A stretch of DNA of 64,000 nucleotides from Methylobacillus sp. MM3. GTDB taxonomy: Bacteria; Pseudomonadota; Gammaproteobacteria; Burkholderiales; Methylophilaceae. Below the pieces are notes generated by a model, which saw nothing but the letters and a program-made list of their open reading frames with translations, searched no databases and was not told the DNA's origin. The stretch's first letter is position 1, and the number at the start of each line of letters is the position of its first letter. Where the stretch lies: the NCBI RefSeq assembly GCF_001645185.1, contig NZ_LXTQ01000040.1, positions 1-64,000 on the forward strand. Reading direction: 5' to 3'. Of this stretch, positions 11,866 through 21,162 are shown one piece after another. Both the position numbers and the translations under genes were made by a program.

Positions 11866-12249
11866 ATGTCCACGCATAAACAGTATCAATTTTCGGTCTC
11901 GGTCGAAACAGCGTTTGTGCCGGATCAGTCCGATGAAGACCAGGGGCGTTATGTATTTTCCTACACCATAACCATTACCAATACCGGCAGCGTAGCTGCA
12001 CAGCTGATCAGCCGGCATTGGGTCATTACCGACGCCAATGAGCATGTGCAGGAGGTACGCGGATTGGGCGTGGTAGGGGTGCAGCCCTTGCTTCAACCGG
12101 GTGAGCATTTTCAATATACCAGCGGGACAGTATTGCCGACGCCCGTTGGCATGATGCATGGGAGTTACCAGATGACGGCAGAAGACGGTACCCAGTTCGA
12201 AACGCCGATCCCACCCTTTGCCCTTTCCATGCCGCGCGTGCTGCATTAA
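11866..12249 (+). CDS. apaG: ApaG (CorD) family protein
   Basis: This 127-residue all-beta protein of the ApaG/CorD family has an FNIII-like fold. Family features are VSVETAFVPDQS, YVFSYTITITNTGSVAAQLISRHWVITD, VRGLGVVGVQPLLQPGEHFQYTSG and GSYQMTAEDG. Its cellular role is unsettled; mutants in enterobacteria affect cation transport and diadenosine tetraphosphate. In this class it is often near mltA, as here, where mltA starts four bases after its stop. Confidence 0.95.
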   Translation: MSTHKQYQFSVSVETAFVPDQSDEDQGRYVFSYTITITNTGSVAAQLISRHWVITDANEHVQEVRGLGVVGVQPLLQPGEHFQYTSGTVLPTPVGMMHGSYQMTAEDGTQFETPIPPFALSMPRVLH

Positions 12250-12253
12250 CGCG

Positions 12254-13525
12254 ATGGTGTTCCGATTTCTCGTTCTACTGCCGCTTGTCCTCCTGGGTTG
12301 TGCGGCGCCAGCCAGCAAACCTGTTGTCGAACAGCCCCCGCTTCCCGGCGTAGCCACTGCGAAACCATGCAAATGCGAGCCGCAGGAAACCCTGCCTCCG
12401 CTGCAGGTTCCAGATGCGGAGCGCTATGTACCGCCATCGGCCATCGTCAAGCCGGTCGAGCCACCCAAGGCGCCGGAATATGGCTTGTTGCGCCCCGCAG
12501 AATGGTCGGCTCTCAACGGTTTCGACGAGGATGATCTGGTCGCTGCCTGGCCAGCGCTATTGCGTAGCTGCGGAGCTCTCAAGAATCGTGATGCCTGGCA
12601 GAATGCCTGCTCGGCGGCTTTCCAGCTGGGAACGCCGGATAATCGGACAATCCGTAAATTCCTGATCGAGTATTTCAAGCCATATCAGGCAAGCAATTCC
12701 GACAACACCGACACCGGACTGATCACGGGCTATTACCAACCGGAACTGAAAGGCAGTCGAACGCGCACTGAACGCTATCGCTATCCTCTTTATTCCAGGC
12801 CGGATGACCTGGTCAGCGTCGAACTGGGCAGTGTATATCCCGAGCTTGCCGGGCGCAGGCTGCGCGGCAAGATTGGCGGCAGCAAGCTCATGCCCTATTA
12901 CAGCCGCGGCGAGATCGACATTATCGAGTCGCCATTGATAGGCAAGGAATTGCTTTGGGTGGACGATGTGGTCGATCTGTTTTTCTTGCAAATCCAAGGA
13001 TCCGGCATTATCGATCTGGAGAATGGCGAAAGGCTGCCGGTGGGTTACGCGGATCAGAACGGCCACCCATACCAGTCAATCGGGCGGGTTCTGATCGACC
13101 GGGGCGAGTTGACACCCGACAAGGCCTCGATGCAAGGCATCAAGGATTGGGGCCGCCGCAACCCGGACAAGTTGCGCGAATTGCTCAATACCAATCCCAG
13201 CTATGTTTTTTTCCGGGAATTGCCTGGAGGTTTGCCTGGGCCCCTCGGTGCCTTGGGCGTGCCCATTGCCGCGGAGCGCAGCATCGCGATCGACCCCAGA
13301 TATATCCCGTTGGGAGCGCCGGTATTCCTGAGTACGACCTATCCTAATAGTAGTCAGCCCATGCGCAGGCTGGTCGTGGCTCAGGATACCGGCGGCGCCA
13401 TCAAGGGGGCCGTGCGCGCGGACTTTTTCTGGGGCGCGGGGTTCGACGCGGGAAGGCAGGCCGGCGGCATGAAACAGCAGGGTAGGCTATGGGTTTTGTT
13501 GCCCAAGGAGTGGCAGGGAAAATAG
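12254..13525 (+). CDS. mltA: Membrane-bound lytic murein transglycosylase A
   Basis: This 423-residue lipoprotein cleaves peptidoglycan glycan strands to 1,6-anhydromuropeptides at the outer membrane. I chose the ATG that gives a lipoprotein signal with lipobox VLLGC (Cys about residue 16); the longer upstream frame overlaps apaG. The MltA domain (about 110-330) includes GLITGYYQPELKGS, and the C-terminal 3D domain has VVAQDTGGAIKGAVRADFFWG with the catalytic and conserved Asp residues. Gene order apaG-mltA supports the call. Confidence 0.95.
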   Translation: MVFRFLVLLPLVLLGCAAPASKPVVEQPPLPGVATAKPCKCEPQETLPPLQVPDAERYVPPSAIVKPVEPPKAPEYGLLRPAEWSALNGFDEDDLVAAWPALLRSCGALKNRDAWQNACSAAFQLGTPDNRTIRKFLIEYFKPYQASNSDNTDTGLITGYYQPELKGSRTRTERYRYPLYSRPDDLVSVELGSVYPELAGRRLRGKIGGSKLMPYYSRGEIDIIESPLIGKELLWVDDVVDLFFLQIQGSGIIDLENGERLPVGYADQNGHPYQSIGRVLIDRGELTPDKASMQGIKDWGRRNPDKLRELLNTNPSYVFFRELPGGLPGPLGALGVPIAAERSIAIDPRYIPLGAPVFLSTTYPNSSQPMRRLVVAQDTGGAIKGAVRADFFWGAGFDAGRQAGGMKQQGRLWVLLPKEWQGK

Positions 13526-13573: not shown

Positions 13574-13594
13574 TTAATCAACCAGGTTGATTAA
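13574..13594. promoter_or_regulatory. 21-bp perfect palindrome upstream of the TonB-dependent receptor
   Basis: TTAATCAACC and GGTTGATTAA are perfect 10-bp arms around a single A. It lies 180 bp before the receptor start codon and 48 bp after mltA. Size and symmetry suit a dimeric regulator site. A second, weaker hairpin (CCGGC at 13602, GCCGG at 13620) follows without a T run. The rest of this 248-bp gap shows nothing clear. Confidence 0.5.
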
Positions 13595-13773
13595 GGTAAT
13601 TCCGGCATTTAGAATAAACGCCGGATATGCAACATCGCTCCAAAAATGACTTGTGCAATGCATAGGTCGATGATTGATAGATCTTACCGATACACACAAT
13701 AAAACGGGTACTGATCATTCCGAAGGTTAGGTACAACTTCATGAGGTCATGAACCATTGAAAGCGTGGTTAGC

Positions 13774-15777
13774 ATGACCCAGATATCGATTGCCGCACAA
13801 AAAGCAAAATCTCGCGTATGCGAGAGCTTCGCCATTTGTGTGTTATTGGTATCCTTCCCAGCAGCGCAGGCCGCAGAGTCGCCCGCGCTCACAGCCGAGC
13901 AGCTGATTGATATTCCATTCGAGCAATTGGTCACCCTTGAGGTGTCGAGCGCATCCCGTTATCCGCAAAAAATAAGCGAAGCGCCATCCGCGGCAGTGGT
14001 GGTCGACTCCGACGAAATCCGTACTTACGGATATCGAACGCTGGCGGATGTGTTGCGCAGCATGCCGGGACTTTATATCAGCGACGATCATAGCTGGAGC
14101 TATATCGGCGTACGCGGTTTTTCTCGCCCCGGCGATTACAACACCCGTGTTCTGCTTTTGGTGGACGGCTATCGCGTAAACGACAACATTTTCAACCAGG
14201 CTTACATCGGCAACGAGTTTCTGGTTGATATCGACATGGTCGAGCGCGTGGAATTCATTCCCGGTCCGGGTGCCTCAGCCTATGGTGACAATGCCTTCTT
14301 CGGCGTGATCAATGTCATTACCAAATCGGCGTCCGCCATGTTGGGATCCACGATTACGGCGGAGGCCGGCAGCCATAACAGTTACAAGGGCGGATATCGC
14401 TACGGCAATCGTTTGGATAACGGTGCCGAGGTCGTCATGGGGATCACTCACTACGAGAGCGAGGGGCGGGACTGGTTCTCGCCGGAGCATGGCGCGGTAG
14501 CGCACGATCTTGATACCGAACGCTATACCAAGCTGTTTGCCAAGGTGTCCTATCAGGAATGGGCTTTTGAAGGCGGTTATATGAAGCGTCCCAAAAGCAA
14601 CCCTTCCGCTCCCTATAGTACTGTTTTCGGCGATGAACGTTTTGAAACCGTCGATACCCATGCTTTTGCCAATGCCAGTTATAACAGCGCGCTTTCAGAC
14701 AAACTGCACCTGTCCGGTAATCTGTATTACGGTGCATACGATTACGATGGCATCTATCCGTATGCAACCACATTGAATATCGACCGCAGCAAAGGCCGGC
14801 GAGCAGGTGGAGAGCTACGCTTGTTGAGCACGGCTTTTGCAGGTCACAAACTGCTGGGTGGCATCGAGTATCAAAAAGATTTGCGCCAGATGCAGCGGAA
14901 TTACGATCTGACGCCGCGTACGGAATATTTCAAAAGCGACCAGGCACCCCATAAGCACGGGATTTTCGTTCAGGACGAATACACCATCCGGGATGACCTC
15001 CTGCTTAACGCAGGCCTGCGCTACGATCATTACAGCGCCTTCGGCGGCACTACCAACCCTCGCGTCGCGCTGATCTACCATCCTTCGCCCGGCAACGGAC
15101 TGAAGCTGATCTACGGTTCGGCTTACCGAGCGCCGAATGCCTATGAAATGTTCTATGGCGATGCGGACACGCCGGATTACAAAGGCAATCCGGAATTGGA
15201 TCCGGAAAGAATCAAGACATACGAGCTTGTACTGGAGAAAAGCTTCGGCGCTTCCTGGCACGGTACGCTTTCCGTCTTCCACTATGACGTGAAAAACCTG
15301 ATCACCCAGATTGTCGATACGGATGACAGGCTATTGTTCGTCAATGGCGAGAAAGCACACACCTCCGGCATCGAGCTCAGCGCCGAGAAATATTGGCAAG
15401 GCGGCGCAAAGCTCAAAGGCAATATCAGCTACCAGGACGCTCGGGATAAAGCCGATAACCGGTGGCTGACCAATTCGCCGCGCATCTTGGGCAAGCTCGC
15501 ACTGGCCTTGCCTATCGCGCATTTCTGGCAGGCCGGGGCAGAGCTGCAATACACCGGCAAGCGACGTACAAATGCCGGTGAAGTCGGCGGTTATGCATTG
15601 GCCAACCTGACACTGAACCGCAGAAGTCTGTTGAAAGGCCTCGATGCATCGCTGAGCGCGTATAACCTGTTCGACAAAGAGTATGAGGATCCCGCCGATA
15701 CCGGCGCATTTGAGTTGCAGGATGTTTTGAAGCAGGATGGCCGGACGCTTCGGATCAAGCTGGATTACAGATTTTGA
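13774..15777 (+). CDS. TonB-dependent outer membrane receptor
   Basis: This 667-residue protein has a signal peptide (about 1-35, ending AAQAAES) and a TonB-box-like start. The plug domain (about 60-165) contains SEAPSAAVVVDSDEI, TLADVLRSMPGLYIS and VERVEFIPGPGASAYGDNAFFGVINVITK. A beta-barrel follows, ending in the aromatic residue F (LRIKLDYRF) typical of outer membrane proteins. The substrate cannot be read from sequence. It heads a three-gene unit with a YfiR-like protein and a c-di-GMP enzyme, so it may act as a ligand sensor or transporter linked to signalling. The upstream in-frame GTG at 13765 is a less likely start. Confidence 0.9.
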   Translation: MTQISIAAQKAKSRVCESFAICVLLVSFPAAQAAESPALTAEQLIDIPFEQLVTLEVSSASRYPQKISEAPSAAVVVDSDEIRTYGYRTLADVLRSMPGLYISDDHSWSYIGVRGFSRPGDYNTRVLLLVDGYRVNDNIFNQAYIGNEFLVDIDMVERVEFIPGPGASAYGDNAFFGVINVITKSASAMLGSTITAEAGSHNSYKGGYRYGNRLDNGAEVVMGITHYESEGRDWFSPEHGAVAHDLDTERYTKLFAKVSYQEWAFEGGYMKRPKSNPSAPYSTVFGDERFETVDTHAFANASYNSALSDKLHLSGNLYYGAYDYDGIYPYATTLNIDRSKGRRAGGELRLLSTAFAGHKLLGGIEYQKDLRQMQRNYDLTPRTEYFKSDQAPHKHGIFVQDEYTIRDDLLLNAGLRYDHYSAFGGTTNPRVALIYHPSPGNGLKLIYGSAYRAPNAYEMFYGDADTPDYKGNPELDPERIKTYELVLEKSFGASWHGTLSVFHYDVKNLITQIVDTDDRLLFVNGEKAHTSGIELSAEKYWQGGAKLKGNISYQDARDKADNRWLTNSPRILGKLALALPIAHFWQAGAELQYTGKRRTNAGEVGGYALANLTLNRRSLLKGLDASLSAYNLFDKEYEDPADTGAFELQDVLKQDGRTLRIKLDYRF

Positions 15778-15782
15778 AGCGC

Positions 15783-16328
15783 ATGAAGGCCGGCTTTTAT
15801 TTGAAGCGCGTTATCTTGCTGGCTCTCGGTTGCGTAATGGGATTCGAGGCGTGGGCCATGTCCCCTGCAGCCGTCTCCGAGTATGAGTTGAAAGCGGCTT
15901 ACTTGTACAATTTTGCGCTGTTCACTACCTGGCCGCAGGACAGAATGGAGGAGAAGGATGCTCCGCTGGTTTTCTGCGTCTTTGCCCAGGATGAGCAAGC
16001 GGCCTCGATTGCCGGCCTGCAGACCCGAAAAATACGCGACCGGGGCATTCTGGTCAGGCAGATCGAGATGCCAGAAGATGGGCGGGGATGCCATGTGTTA
16101 TTTTTTGGAGCAAAGAGTACTGAGGCAATTCCGGGCATATTGGAAATCGTGCGCGATACCGGAACGCTGACGGTGACGGATGTGCCGGATCCGATTCGCA
16201 AGGAGGCAGTCATTAGCATGGCGATCGAAAACGGCAGGCTCGCGTTCGACGTCAATTTACTCAATGCGCGTCGCGCACGGCTGATACTGAGCTCAAAGCT
16301 GCTCAAGCTGGCCAGAATAGCCAATTGA
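15783..16328 (+). CDS. YfiR/DUF4154 family periplasmic protein
   Basis: This 181-residue protein has a signal peptide ending AWAMS and the DUF4154 pattern: EYELKAAYLYNFALFTTWP near the mature start, then APLVFCVFAQDE, CHVLFFGAKS, TLTVTDVPDP and FDVNLLNARRARLILSSKLLKLARI at the end. In Pseudomonas, YfiR is a periplasmic repressor of the membrane diguanylate cyclase YfiN. The next gene encodes such an enzyme, so the same pairing is likely. Start chosen is the ATG six bases after the receptor stop; an overlapping TTG is the alternative. Confidence 0.88.
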   Translation: MKAGFYLKRVILLALGCVMGFEAWAMSPAAVSEYELKAAYLYNFALFTTWPQDRMEEKDAPLVFCVFAQDEQAASIAGLQTRKIRDRGILVRQIEMPEDGRGCHVLFFGAKSTEAIPGILEIVRDTGTLTVTDVPDPIRKEAVISMAIENGRLAFDVNLLNARRARLILSSKLLKLARIAN

Positions 16329-16341
16329 ACGGGAACGCCAA

Positions 16342-18240
16342 TTGAAAATACACGCCGGGCTGCTGTGGCTGACACCGAAAGCGGGATCATCCAGTTTGTG
16401 GAGAATCGATATCGTTGTTACCGCTGCAGCATTATTGCTGGCGGGTATCGTATTGATTGCCGCCGAGTTTGTCATCCTGCGCTCTTCCTTGCTCGGTGAG
16501 CTCGATGTGCAAATGCGCATCATCGGCGATAACAGCGGTGCGGCGTTGATGTTCAAGGATAGAGCGGCTGCCGATGAAATTCTTGGCACCCTTCAAGCTT
16601 CCCCCAGCGTGGACGTTGCAATCCTTTATACCCCGGAAGGCGAGATGTTCGCCCAATACCGCCGCCATGACATCGATCCTTCGCTCGCCTCTCTCCGGCC
16701 GACGCAGCCTCAGCGTGCCACCCTGACCTATGTCGAATACCTGCGTAATGTCGACGTGGCAGGAAACCCGGTTGGTGCGCTTTATATCCGTGCCAACATG
16801 CGACAGCTTTATATCCAGCTGCTGTGGTACGTCGGTACGACGGTACTGGTGGTATTGACCATCACTGTGGCTGCTGCCCTGTTGCTGCGGCGCATGCGGC
16901 GCGCCGTGCGGCATGCAGAGGAGCGGGTGGGATATCTGGCTTATTACGATACCGTGACGCATTTGCCGAATCGGCATGCGTTCAATGAGTGCTTTGAGGC
17001 GAGGTTGGGCGAGTCGCGGGAGCAAGATCAGAAATTGACCTTGCTATTCCTCGACCTGGACGACTTCAAGGTAGTGAACGATACGCTGGGACACCATGTC
17101 GGCGACGTGCTGCTTAAAGTCGTGGCAGAAAAGCTCTCCACTTGCATTCGCCAGGGCGACACCGTATATCGTGTGGGTGGCGATGAGTTTGCGATGATCC
17201 TGCCGAATATTGATCGAGAAAATGCGGTCATCGTGGCCGAGAAGTTTATCCGCACCTTGAGTCAGCCACTCAATATTGAAGGCCATACGCTTTACGTCAG
17301 CACGAGTATCGGCATCAGCATGTTCCCGCACGATGGCGCGGATACGGCCACGCTATTGCGCAACGCGGACGCGGCGATGTACTCCGCAAAAGAGCGGGGG
17401 AAAAACACTTTCCAGTACTTCTCCGAAGAAATGCATGAAAAAAGCTCGCTGCGCCTGGCGCTGGAGGGCGATCTGCGCCTGGCGCTCGAGCGCCGTGAAT
17501 TCGAAGTGCATTACCAGCCTATCGTCGCGCTCGAAACGGGAGAAGTGGTCGCCGTTGAGGCACTGCTGCGCTGGCAACATCCGGCAAAAGGCATGATCGG
17601 TCCGAATATCTTCATTCCTTTGGCTGAAACTACGGGATTGATCGTGCCGATCGGGGAGTGGGTGTTGCGTCAGGCTTGTACCGATGCGCACGCATGGCAT
17701 GCCCAAGGACACAATGTGCAGGTCAGCGTGAATCTGTCAGGGCGGCAATTCCGCGAAGAGCCGTTGATCGACACGATTTTGTCTATTCTTCTGGACACCG
17801 GCCTCGATCCCTCGATGCTGATGCTGGAAATTACCGAAAGCGTGCTGATGGAGCACGCCGAAGCGACCGTGGCGCGACTGTACCGGCTGAAGGACAAGGG
17901 TATTTATCTATCCATAGACGATTTCGGTACCGGTTATTCTTCGATGACCTATCTCAAACGCTTTCCCGTGGCCAAGCTCAAGATCGACCAGAGCTTTATC
18001 CGCGATATTCCGGAAGACAGCGAAGATGTTGCAATTACCACGGCCACCATCCAGATGGCGCATGGCCTGAAGCTGAGAGTTGTCGCCGAGGGGATAGAAA
18101 CCAAAGCACAGGCCGATTTCCTGCGCCAGCGGGGGTGCGATATGGGGCAGGGATATCTGTTCAGCCGGCCGGTGAGCTTTGATGCGCTGATGGAGTATCT
18201 GGAGGCGAATACAACGCGAATCAGCGAAATCCGTAAATGA
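16342..18240 (+). CDS. Membrane GGDEF-EAL protein with periplasmic sensor domain
   Basis: This 632-residue protein has two membrane helices (about 22-46 and 162-183) flanking a periplasmic segment that fits a CHASE8-type sensor. GGDEF (residues 279-283) is intact and preceded by an RxxD inhibitory site (R270-D273) at the standard spacing. The EAL domain has EALLRWQHP, ESVLMEHAE, DDFGTGYSSMTYL and KIDQSFI, so both cyclase and phosphodiesterase residues look present. Domain order matches YfiN-like partners of YfiR, with an added EAL domain. The start is TTG, 13 bases after the yfiR-like stop. Confidence 0.9.
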   Translation: MKIHAGLLWLTPKAGSSSLWRIDIVVTAAALLLAGIVLIAAEFVILRSSLLGELDVQMRIIGDNSGAALMFKDRAAADEILGTLQASPSVDVAILYTPEGEMFAQYRRHDIDPSLASLRPTQPQRATLTYVEYLRNVDVAGNPVGALYIRANMRQLYIQLLWYVGTTVLVVLTITVAAALLLRRMRRAVRHAEERVGYLAYYDTVTHLPNRHAFNECFEARLGESREQDQKLTLLFLDLDDFKVVNDTLGHHVGDVLLKVVAEKLSTCIRQGDTVYRVGGDEFAMILPNIDRENAVIVAEKFIRTLSQPLNIEGHTLYVSTSIGISMFPHDGADTATLLRNADAAMYSAKERGKNTFQYFSEEMHEKSSLRLALEGDLRLALERREFEVHYQPIVALETGEVVAVEALLRWQHPAKGMIGPNIFIPLAETTGLIVPIGEWVLRQACTDAHAWHAQGHNVQVSVNLSGRQFREEPLIDTILSILLDTGLDPSMLMLEITESVLMEHAEATVARLYRLKDKGIYLSIDDFGTGYSSMTYLKRFPVAKLKIDQSFIRDIPEDSEDVAITTATIQMAHGLKLRVVAEGIETKAQADFLRQRGCDMGQGYLFSRPVSFDALMEYLEANTTRISEIRK

Positions 18241-18266
18241 AAACGGGGGCCGAGGCCCCCGTTTTC
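18240..18266 (+). terminator. Terminator of the receptor-YfiR-GGDEF/EAL unit
   Basis: AAAACGGGGGCC and GGCCCCCGTTTT form a 12-bp stem with a 3-base loop, starting at the last base of the stop codon. The T tract lies in the stem end, and it could also serve pqqA on the opposite strand. Confidence 0.88.
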
Positions 18267-18281
18267 ATTTATTGCTGCGAA

Positions 18282-18353
18282 TTAGCGATTGCAAACGTAC
18301 ATCGTCACTTCAAAGCCAAAACGCATTTCAGTTGCTTGAGGTTTGGTCCACAT
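18282..18353 (-). CDS. pqqA: PqqA, coenzyme PQQ precursor peptide (stand-alone)
   Basis: This 23-residue peptide matches PqqA: it starts MWTKP and ends with the conserved core GFEVTMY, giving Glu15 and Tyr19 in the required E-x3-Y spacing, whose side chains become the PQQ skeleton. A strong AGGAGG site lies eight bases before the ATG. The tail VCNR contains a cysteine. None of pqqB, C, D or E is adjacent, since the next gene downstream is convergent. Either the biosynthetic genes lie elsewhere or this is an extra copy, as seen in some methylotrophs. Confidence 0.9.
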   Translation of the reverse strand: MWTKPQATEMRFGFEVTMYVCNR

Positions 18354-18554
18354 GATGAAGTCCTCCTAAAATATTCCTACTGGGCTGTTTCCACTATAGA
18401 GCGCTTCATGGAGTAAGCGGTCTGTAAGTTGGAGTTCATTGTGCGCCCGGCATTCAATGGAAACCCTGCCTAAAGTCATGAAATCACGCTCATGATTTCC
18501 ATGAATCATTCGGTGCAGGCGAGACCATGCGTATGGAACGGATAGGATACGAAC

Positions 18555-19455: not shown

Positions 19456-21162
19456 ATGAAAAATCGGTTTCAACAAGCGCGCGAGCCCAGCCAGGGTGAA
19501 ATCCAGGGCCTGCTCAATCTCTACAATGCCGGGCAGTTGCCACAGGCGGAGATCACCGCCAAGTCGCTGATCAAATCCTATCCCGGCGCATTGATCGCCT
19601 ATAACGTGTTGGGCGTTGCGCTCGAAGGGCAACGCAAGTTCGAAGAGGCGGCCGTCTGGTATCGCAAGGCCTTATCCCTGAACCCCGGTCTTGCCGAACT
19701 GCATTTCAATCTGGGCGTCGTGCTGAGCAATCTCGGCAAGCTGGACGATGCCATTACCAGCTACAAGCGTGCTGCCGCGCTTAAGCCGAATCTCGCTGTC
19801 GTGCACTTCAATCTCGGCACCGCGTTGCAGGAGCGCGGCAGGCTGGAGGAAGCGGCAGCCAGTTTCGGCAAGGCTTTGGCGGTCGAGCCCAATTTTTTCG
19901 AGGCACACGGCAATCTCGGCACGGTGCTGCAAAAGCAGGGCAAGCTGGAAGAGGCCGTGGCGAGTTACCGTCGCGCCCTGGCGATCCATGCCGATGCGCG
20001 CGGGCATTTCAATCTGGGTACCGCGCTGCGCGACCAGGGCAAGCTGGACGAGGCGATTGCCAGTTACCGGCAGGCGCTGGCGCTCAAGCCGGATTACGTC
20101 GAAGCCCATAACAACATGGGCGAAGCGTTGCGCGACCAAGGGCGGATGGAAGAGGCCGTGGCCTGCTTCCGTACGGCGCTGACGATCAATCCCGAAAACG
20201 GGCTTGCCAACTTCAACTGGGCGCAATTCCTGTTCGATGCCGGCAAACTGGATGAAGCGATTCCGTTTTTCGAGAAGTCACAGTTGCATGACTGGCGCGA
20301 ACGTACGCTGTATTGCCTGTACAAGACCGAAAAGTTCGATGCATTCCGCGATCAGCTGCAGCACATGCTGAAAGGCAAGAATAACTCGCCTTTCCTCGCC
20401 ACGCTTTCCACACATTACGCCACTAATTTCGGCATATCCGACCCGTACAACTTTTGCCCCGACGGCATGGAGTTTGTCTACCAGAACAGCATTCCGGAAT
20501 TGGCCCAGGAAAACAGTGCGCTGTTGCAGGAGATTCTGAATGACATCAATCATGCCGAGATTGCCGAACGCAAGCAGGGACGTCTGCATAACGGCATCCA
20601 GTCGGCGGGAAACCTGTTCAAGCGGCCGGAAGAGTCATTCCGCAAGCTGGCGCAACTGGTCAGAAACGAGGCTGCCAAGTACCGGCAGAAGTTCAACGGC
20701 TCGCAATGCGAACTCATCAAGTCGTTCCCCCAGGACGTGCAATTCAGCAGCTCGTGGTATGTGAAGATGCGCCAGGGCGGTCATCTGACTTCGCATATCC
20801 ATGAAGAAGGCTGGATTAGCGGCGCGGTTTACCTGCAAATGCCCAAGGAGACCGACGGCGTCGCGGGAAGCTTCGCGTTCGGCACCGACGGCGATGCGTA
20901 TCCGCGCAAGCACGATAACTTTCCCGAACGCTCCATCCTGCCCAAGGTGGGCGATATTGTGATGTTCCCATCCTCGCTGTTTCATCGCACGATTCCATTC
21001 AAGTCGGATGATGAGCGCATCTGCGTCGCATTCGACATCAAGCCCAAGGAAGATTCGCCGAAGATGCATCTGGGGCTCAAGCTACTGATTCTGGGGTGGC
21101 TGGAAATCGCCTGCCTGGAATTGGCCGAAATGGCCCTGGTGCCGATGACGCTAATGGCCTAG
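19456..21162 (+). CDS. TPR-repeat protein with C-terminal 2OG-Fe(II) oxygenase domain
   Basis: This 568-residue protein starts with about seven tandem tetratricopeptide repeats (about 20-290), with consensus turns such as AHNNMGEALRDQGRMEEAV. The C-terminus (about 420-540) fits the putative 2OG-Fe(II) oxygenase family: LTSHIHEEGWISGAVYLQMP, then GDIVMFPSSLFHRTIPF and ERICVAFDI, supplying His ligands and the Arg that binds oxoglutarate. Such TPR fusions are thought to hydroxylate proteins or glycans, but the target is unknown. The final 25 residues are unusually hydrophobic. The stop overlaps that of the convergent helicase gene by four bases. Confidence 0.85.
   Translation: MKNRFQQAREPSQGEIQGLLNLYNAGQLPQAEITAKSLIKSYPGALIAYNVLGVALEGQRKFEEAAVWYRKALSLNPGLAELHFNLGVVLSNLGKLDDAITSYKRAAALKPNLAVVHFNLGTALQERGRLEEAAASFGKALAVEPNFFEAHGNLGTVLQKQGKLEEAVASYRRALAIHADARGHFNLGTALRDQGKLDEAIASYRQALALKPDYVEAHNNMGEALRDQGRMEEAVACFRTALTINPENGLANFNWAQFLFDAGKLDEAIPFFEKSQLHDWRERTLYCLYKTEKFDAFRDQLQHMLKGKNNSPFLATLSTHYATNFGISDPYNFCPDGMEFVYQNSIPELAQENSALLQEILNDINHAEIAERKQGRLHNGIQSAGNLFKRPEESFRKLAQLVRNEAAKYRQKFNGSQCELIKSFPQDVQFSSSWYVKMRQGGHLTSHIHEEGWISGAVYLQMPKETDGVAGSFAFGTDGDAYPRKHDNFPERSILPKVGDIVMFPSSLFHRTIPFKSDDERICVAFDIKPKEDSPKMHLGLKLLILGWLEIACLELAEMALVPMTLMA

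Follow-up and report, generated by a model that had tools for sequence, protein, structure and literature searches.

We analysed a stretch of 64,000 nucleotides from Methylobacillus sp. MM3 (contig NZ_LXTQ01000040.1, C40 in our numbering, of the 2.96-Mb genome; positions 1 to 64,000; hereafter the window). On its forward strand three consecutive genes encode a TonB-dependent receptor (TBDR), a YfiR-like protein and an inner-membrane enzyme of cyclic di-GMP (c-di-GMP). Judged from the sequences, we consider it somewhat probable (roughly 0.57) that the three form one envelope-spanning relay in which the TBDR would replace the lipoprotein YfiB as the outer-membrane partner of YfiR. An original prediction, made from the letters of the window, had described these genes, and they are present as described, both as open reading frames (ORFs) and by Pfam matches. 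The trio is real and conserved, and it is found more generally than that prediction had supposed. How c-di-GMP enzymes learn of the outside of the cell is mostly unknown. The reference system is YfiBNR of Pseudomonas aeruginosa, which has homologs in Escherichia coli and, as HmsCDE, in Yersinia. The features discussed are the following:

13765 (GTG) or 13774 (ATG) to 15777, + strand: TBDR with plug and barrel and a BtuB-like fold (PF07715/PF00593, AlphaFold model)
13888 to 13959, + strand: conserved N-terminal segment of the TBDR, LTAEQLIDIPFEQLVTLEVSSASR (residues 39-62 counted from the ATG at 13774), immediately before the plug
15774 (TTG) or 15783 (ATG) to 16328, + strand: YfiR-like protein (DUF4154) with a signal-peptide-like N-terminus (Pfam, alignment, model)
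16342 (TTG) to 18240, + strand: inner-membrane c-di-GMP enzyme, in the order transmembrane helix, CHASE8 (AALMFKD), transmembrane helix, GGDEF (with RxxD), EAL (Pfam, alignment)

Association of the receptor with YfiR across genomes

Loci that are found through YfiR cannot show that a receptor goes with YfiR, and we therefore also searched from the receptor side. A profile of the window TBDR clade (A3, 17 rows) was run at E ≤ 1e-40 against a family set, taken to be Methylophilaceae, of 150 genomes (49 with DUF4154, own genome included), scoring at most 8 candidates per genome. We observed 36 of 38 receptor rows beside a YfiR gene, two of the 36 being fragments of one gene; in genome G121 the adjacent YfiR row is partial and below the Pfam cut-off. 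Both remaining rows come from genome G005: one is a truncated receptor whose neighbour, an EAL gene, is truncated too, and the other is a weak partial match. Each of the 32 genomes in which such a receptor was found has an adjacent YfiR, compared to YfiR in 49 of 150 genomes overall (Fisher 1.4e-20, not corrected for kinship). The second search used the NCBIfam model of the receptor TOL_0244 at E ≤ 1e-120 on 274 genomes of the class, scoring at most 4 candidates per genome. Here 24 of 31 rows lay within 1 kb of a YfiR gene, and YfiR was present in each of the 24 genomes that carry such a receptor, compared to 39 of 274 overall (Fisher 1.4e-24, again not corrected for kinship). Co-occurrence in other genomes had been proposed as a check on the prediction, and the set passed it strongly. 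As a separate observation, the truncated receptor next to the EAL remnant (G005:C25; L348, 8380-10033) is perhaps a decayed operon copy that has lost its YfiR.

Starting from YfiR, we inspected 59 loci of the family set (58 fetched stretches plus the window and L003, minus L090, where the profile found no YfiR ORF) and 100 loci of a phylum set of 398 genomes, 94 of them with DUF4154. The latter 100 are what was left of 123 matches outside the own genome after 7 partial matches and 16 same-genus repeats had been dropped before inspection. A TBDR was adjacent to YfiR on the same strand in 39/59 family loci (own two included) and in 52/100 phylum loci, and present anywhere in the stretch read in 39/59 and 61/100. 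In the family set, 58 of 59 loci have a CHASE8 protein adjoining YfiR. A scan of named genomes with the window YfiR alone gave no matches, and an alignment of nine closer YfiRs did. For the named loci we took the best 80 of the 166 relatives that nine TBDR-linked YfiRs retrieved, which is a biased sample; 64 of these 80 have an adjacent TBDR, 37 of them with a CHASE8-GGDEF-EAL output like that of the window. Among the 64 are loci labelled as Geobacteraceae, Nitrospirota, Candidatus Eisenbacteria and a deltaproteobacterium that is filed under Myxococcota; some of these come from metagenome bins. An adjacent TBDR together with a GGDEF-EAL output was found, among others, in Methylotenera mobilis 13, Novimethylophilus kurashikiensis La2-4, Noviherbaspirillum species, Massilia niastensis and a Duganella strain, so that the trio is a testable gene set in named bacteria.

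We can also see the association in a FastTree phylogeny of 132 receptors, on which linked or in-locus versus unlinked status needs 9 changes compared to 28.9 in shuffles; the linked receptors cluster, and the window TBDR falls within a 39-row clade in which all rows are YfiR-linked. As the rows of this tree were found through YfiR, the receptor-first search is the stronger test.

Genes with an OmpA signature, as expected for YfiB, occurred near YfiR in 14/100 phylum and 4/59 family loci and always together with a GGDEF-only enzyme. A TBDR and an OmpA-like gene were never observed at one YfiR locus (0/100 phylum, Fisher 1e-5; 0/59 family). Near the window YfiR our pattern detected no OmpA-like ORF, although a genome-wide search for YfiB was not made. 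The prediction that a TBDR stands in for the OmpA-like lipoprotein thus agrees with what we found, both in the window and across loci. On the YfiR tree the OmpA label requires 3 changes, the TBDR label 22 and the combined output labels 33: the output was exchanged frequently, the OmpA partner rarely.

YfiR residues, the receptor segment and the outputs

The window YfiR matches DUF4154 ('YfiR/HmsC-like') at E 2.5e-37, as expected of a periplasmic YfiR of the YfiBNR type. Its model has a mean predicted confidence (pLDDT) of 91.2, and the best fold matches are solved YfiR structures (E 3e-8). To compare residue classes we aligned 159 YfiRs: the locus contains a TBDR for 100 of them and OmpA for 18, while 38 have neither partner and 3 are fused and lack a TBDR. 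The positions that contact YfiB were taken from the solved YfiB-YfiR complex (PMC4887326) and those that face YfiN from PMC3375315. F162, which faces YfiN, is kept in 85/100 TBDR-linked, 18/18 OmpA-linked and 28/38 partner-less YfiRs. Position 178 is Pro in 18/18 OmpA-linked YfiRs and Ser or Ala in 94/100 TBDR-linked ones. Arg at 175 was observed in 16/18 versus 12/100, and position 177 is His or Asn in 15/18 OmpA-linked and Ser in 76/100 TBDR-linked sequences. C145 and C152 are each present in 18/18 OmpA-linked YfiRs, compared to 1/100 and 0/100, respectively, in TBDR-linked ones, and the two Cys of the other pair are each retained in 81/100 TBDR-linked YfiRs. The enzyme-facing side of YfiR is thus conserved, and the YfiB-binding marks are confined to the YfiB class. 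The window YfiR has F at 162, I, S and S at 175, 177 and 178 and only the first Cys pair; it lacks R175, H177 and P178 as well as Cys at 145 and 152. These residues fit a partner other than YfiB, which does not by itself prove that the TBDR is that partner.

The TBDR matches the Pfam plug (E 3.1e-18) and barrel (E 1.5e-48), and no STN domain, as found in transducers of the FecA type, was matched at E ≤ 0.01. Its AlphaFold model, built with the 17-row alignment, has a mean pLDDT of 78.5. The best match of the model in the PDB is BtuB (E 2.4e-32), and other transporters match too. Within the N-terminal segment E50 is nearly invariant and L52 and A60 are invariant across the 17 rows, yet residues 24-72, which include all three, have a pLDDT below 50. 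The combination of conservation and disorder suggests a binding segment. Because part of the segment is probably a TonB box, we treat a contact between the segment and YfiR as putative. A box profile of 24 positions, trained on family receptors, was used to compare linked and unlinked receptors of the phylum set, with 12 more receptors at or beside a YfiR gene excluded from the controls. At least 8 bits were reached by 25/52 YfiR-linked receptors versus 3/32 unlinked ones and at least 3 bits by 39/52 versus 4/32. One control receptor (L249, box score -0.5) in fact has a YfiR gene ∼5 kb upstream of it (L349). When 600 random ORFs of the loci were scored, the 8-bit level was attained by 6, all of them receptors within YfiR loci. 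We rejected the box as a general YfiR-specific motif, as the profile includes the probable TonB box.

At three loci a non-TBDR protein resembling outer-membrane proteins is encoded directly upstream of YfiR (L160, 3769-4860; L183, 5546-6604; L206, 5483-6649). By eye their N-termini resemble the TBDR segment (TPSEMADLSLQEL in L160), with box-profile scores of -0.1, 0.4 and 6.6 bits, respectively, so a shared segment is only a lead. The L206 protein has a weak Pfam match to Phenol_MetA_deg under the cut-off and the L160 protein has no Pfam match. A comparison of the N-termini of YfiB-like proteins with the TBDR segment revealed no convincing likeness.

The proteins encoded with the receptor and YfiR vary. 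By patterns of our own we assigned the outputs of the 100 TBDR-linked loci to GGDEF-EAL in 33 cases, kinase in 27, GGDEF only in 8 and a methyl-accepting chemotaxis protein (MCP) in 1, leaving 31 unclassified. At six loci (L199, L212, L215-L218) a single chain joins YfiR to a histidine kinase, without a CHASE8 match; a TBDR lies directly upstream of the fusion in L199 and close by on the opposite strand in L215 and L216. Such fusions without CHASE8 speak for a YfiR that feeds directly into the transmembrane protein.

The own genome contains two matches each to DUF4154 and to CHASE8, which form one-to-one pairs, as well as two PilZ and four ExbD matches, and 2 of its 15 plug-domain receptors lie beside YfiR. 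Its second set (C1:565059; L003, 3009-10695) consists of a TBDR, a YfiR and a CHASE8 protein that carries an MCP-type chemotaxis domain. Two further MCP-type genes follow downstream and a CheR-type gene (by eye) lies upstream, so this set is apparently an outer-membrane input to chemotaxis. A third receptor, of the TOL_0244 kind (C40:82793; L345, 4791-8172, ∼82.8-86.2 kb), has a membrane GGDEF gene as its neighbour, and the 14 kb that we read there contain no YfiR; this pair is possibly a version of the relay without YfiR or one that is served in trans.

For the enzyme of the window we obtained Pfam matches to CHASE8 (E 1.3e-16), GGDEF (E 2.1e-49) and EAL (E 1.1e-79), in keeping with an inner-membrane CHASE8 sensor with a c-di-GMP enzyme as in YfiBNR. 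Both catalytic domains and the RxxD site had been described as intact, and the alignment bears this out. RQGD lies 5 residues ahead of GGDEF, with R-x-x-D at that place in 10 of 12 aligned relatives. The motifs EALLRW, N-x-S, E-x-T-E, DDFGTG, KID, AEGIE and QGYLF are present, with their key residues invariant in the 12-row alignment. No HAMP domain was matched by Pfam between the second transmembrane helix and GGDEF; HAMP is missing in 2 of the 12 rows, the window enzyme and L047. The CHASE8 motif A-x-x-x-F-x-D was found, by a pattern of our own, in 58 of 76 complete sets.

The run is as tightly spaced as had been described: with the TTG start, YfiR (15774) overlaps the TBDR stop by 4 bases, and the enzyme gene begins 13 bases past the YfiR stop. 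The three genes are probably transcribed as one unit. Two further features flank them:

18233 to 18272, + strand: hairpin with a GC stem between A and T runs, terminator-like (-30.6 kcal/mol, z -7.0)
13587 to 13615, + strand: sigma-70-like site with weak evidence (promoter scan), 150-160 bases upstream of the TBDR

The 18-bp hairpin spans the end of the enzyme gene and bases beyond it. The sigma-70-like site is the only one on the + strand of the scanned region; the scan found 2 sites compared to 6.2 in shuffles, fewer than expected, and therefore says little. Upstream, an MltA-type gene (12218-13525) ends 240 bases before the TBDR. Directly past the hairpin a short pqqA-like gene (18283-18354, minus strand) is convergent to the run. 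Its peptide was considered as part of the unit and not counted, as the pattern recurs, apart from the window's own contig (L358), only in L075 among 359 sequences. A TPR protein with an oxygenase-like C-terminus (by eye) is encoded at 19456-21162 of the window. TPR genes also lie upstream of receptor-less YfiR loci in one genus (L077, L079, L081, L083, L085, L089), perhaps by chance.

The proposed relay and its alternatives

In the relay that we propose the TBDR would be the outer-membrane input, at the place that YfiB has in YfiBNR, and the secreted YfiR would mediate between it and the inner membrane. CHASE8 of the GGDEF-EAL protein would be the YfiR-binding input and set the making versus the breaking of c-di-GMP. 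Occupancy of the TBDR, or its engagement by TonB, would alter the availability of the flexible, conserved N-terminal segment, which may capture or free YfiR. This would change the complex between YfiR and CHASE8 and hence c-di-GMP. We infer this mechanism with good genomic support rather than demonstrate it; contact of the TBDR with YfiR and repression by YfiR are putative, as is the sign of the output.

Several observations count against the relay or soften the evidence for it. The stretch read contains no TBDR at 20/59 family and 39/100 phylum YfiR loci, a few of which end at contig ends. Nine TBDR-less loci were read more widely and a TBDR appeared at only one (L139, ∼5 kb on, read in L349); because the other eight stayed without a receptor, YfiR and CHASE8 can work without a TBDR. 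Conversely, 7 of the 31 TOL_0244-type receptors are not beside YfiR, one of them being the receptor next to the GGDEF gene in the own genome. The 38 partner-less YfiRs mostly lack the YfiB marks too (P178 in 4, C145 in 3, C152 in 3). The marks therefore define the YfiB class and, as far as the alignment goes, are not specific to TBDR linkage, which slightly reduced our confidence in both the relay and the broader reading given below. The exclusion of OmpA-like genes by TBDRs is clear in our samples, though independent events are few: as the OmpA label needs only 3 changes, both the exclusion and the residue classes rest on few events. The OmpA, kinase and box assignments moreover use patterns made by ourselves. 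Finally, the partner trees speak for the relay, although matching trees would also be expected from inheritance of the whole operon alone. The distances of TBDR, YfiR and CHASE8 correlate across the 76 complete sets (Mantel r 0.63, 0.54 and 0.72). In a partner-swap test on eight genomes with more than one set, the true partners fitted each other more closely than swapped ones, with r 0.33 for TBDR and YfiR (32 of 768 random swaps were as high), 0.32 for TBDR and CHASE8 (14) and 0.68 for YfiR and CHASE8 (2).

The TBDR might only import a nutrient which YfiR or CHASE8 then senses in the periplasm, so that the TBDR never touches YfiR. The standard transporter fold of the model, the probable TonB box, the four ExbD genes and the missing STN domain are all in line with an importer, and the residues of the TBDR-linked YfiRs recur in the partner-less ones. 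The pocket in which P. aeruginosa YfiR receives YfiB can also bind vitamin B6 (VB6) or L-Trp, though weakly (PMC4887326). Import followed by periplasmic sensing leaves the exclusion between OmpA-like genes and TBDRs at YfiR loci unexplained, however, and we regard it as rather unlikely.

Envelope stress and redox have both been connected with YfiR systems, and the pair of YfiR and GGDEF-EAL protein might sense such cues alone, next to an ordinary nutrient receptor that is merely co-expressed. Pairs of YfiR and CHASE8 without a TBDR are common, and P. aeruginosa YfiR is reported to be redox-responsive (PMC4887326). We nevertheless consider such genomic convenience improbable: receptor and YfiR co-occur in every genome with either receptor kind (32/32 and 24/24), the linked receptors cluster on the tree and the C145-C152 pair is missing in the window YfiR. 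It is more improbable by far that the run is a straight YfiBNR member with YfiB encoded elsewhere and the TBDR incidental. The YfiR fold and the CHASE8 input are indeed shared, but the window YfiR has neither the YfiB-contact residues nor C145 and C152, and the pattern search for an OmpA-like ORF near it, limited as stated above, was negative.

The relay may be one case of a general outer-membrane signalling class beside FecA/FecR, a reading that we hold tentatively and at less than even odds. In such a class TBDRs without STN would report their occupancy by docking a secreted YfiR via a short N-terminal segment beside the TonB box. One front end would serve interchangeable outputs (c-di-GMP enzymes, histidine kinases, chemotaxis receptors), and YfiB and perhaps other barrel proteins would be alternative partners of YfiR. 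If the TBDR is the input, YfiR systems would recognise particular compounds at the cell surface and adjust lifestyle, gene expression or movement to them.

Comparison with known systems

Surface signalling of the FecA/FecR type also relies on a TBDR that relays a signal inward. The window differs from it: no STN domain was found in the TBDR and no FecR-type gene is among the three genes.

Malone et al. (2012) presented YfiR-YfiN as a modular core whose outputs comprise GGDEF-EAL, HPT, kinase and MCP proteins, and described most divergent YfiR-YfiN operons as lacking YfiB (PMC3375315). The run resembles these divergent modules in its swapped output behind YfiR and differs from them in the TBDR; the term 'TonB' has 0 occurrences in the main text of that paper. 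As GGDEF-EAL was already reported behind YfiR there, the GGDEF-EAL swap alone is not new. Among the matches listed for the openly licensed literature, by titles and the starts of abstracts, there was no paper that describes the pairing of receptor and YfiR.

NCBIfam holds models for the receptor TOL_0244 (NF053590), the YfiR-like TOL_0243 (NF053591) and 'HK_near_YfiR_like' (NF053592), a kinase called 'YfiR-like protein-associated'. As these models name all three parts, the curators have evidently seen a kinase version of the trio. The window has the same three-part layout, with a GGDEF-EAL output instead of a kinase and a receptor of another clade. For the window TBDR we obtained 171.8 bits with NF053590 (cut-off 645), for the window YfiR 122.1 bits with NF053591, very near the cut-off of 125. 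Of the 33 YfiRs in alignment A1, 30 match NF053591 at E ≤ 1e-20. In the own genome, the second set passes both the receptor model (889.8, cut-off 645) and the input-domain model (195.7, cut-off 194).

TOL_0244 of Thalassolituus oleivorans was sevenfold up on a long-chain alkane and shows 40.3% similarity to OmpS of Alcanivorax dieselolei (Wang and Shao 2014), a TBDR reported to detect alkanes and to trigger a chemotaxis response (PMC6304351, our source for OmpS as well). These two are the nearest experimental hint that such receptors signal. TOL_0244, the relative of OmpS, belongs to a different clade from the window TBDR, and the ligand of the latter need not be an alkane.

Compared with YfiBNR, the window has a TBDR for YfiB and GGDEF-EAL for GGDEF. 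Its enzyme lacks the HAMP domain that YfiN carries between the membrane and GGDEF (PMC3375315), and its YfiR lacks the YfiB-contact residues and C145/C152. In common with YfiBNR it has a periplasmic YfiR with the YfiR fold, the Phe that faces YfiN and one Cys pair, together with a CHASE8 c-di-GMP enzyme in the inner membrane.

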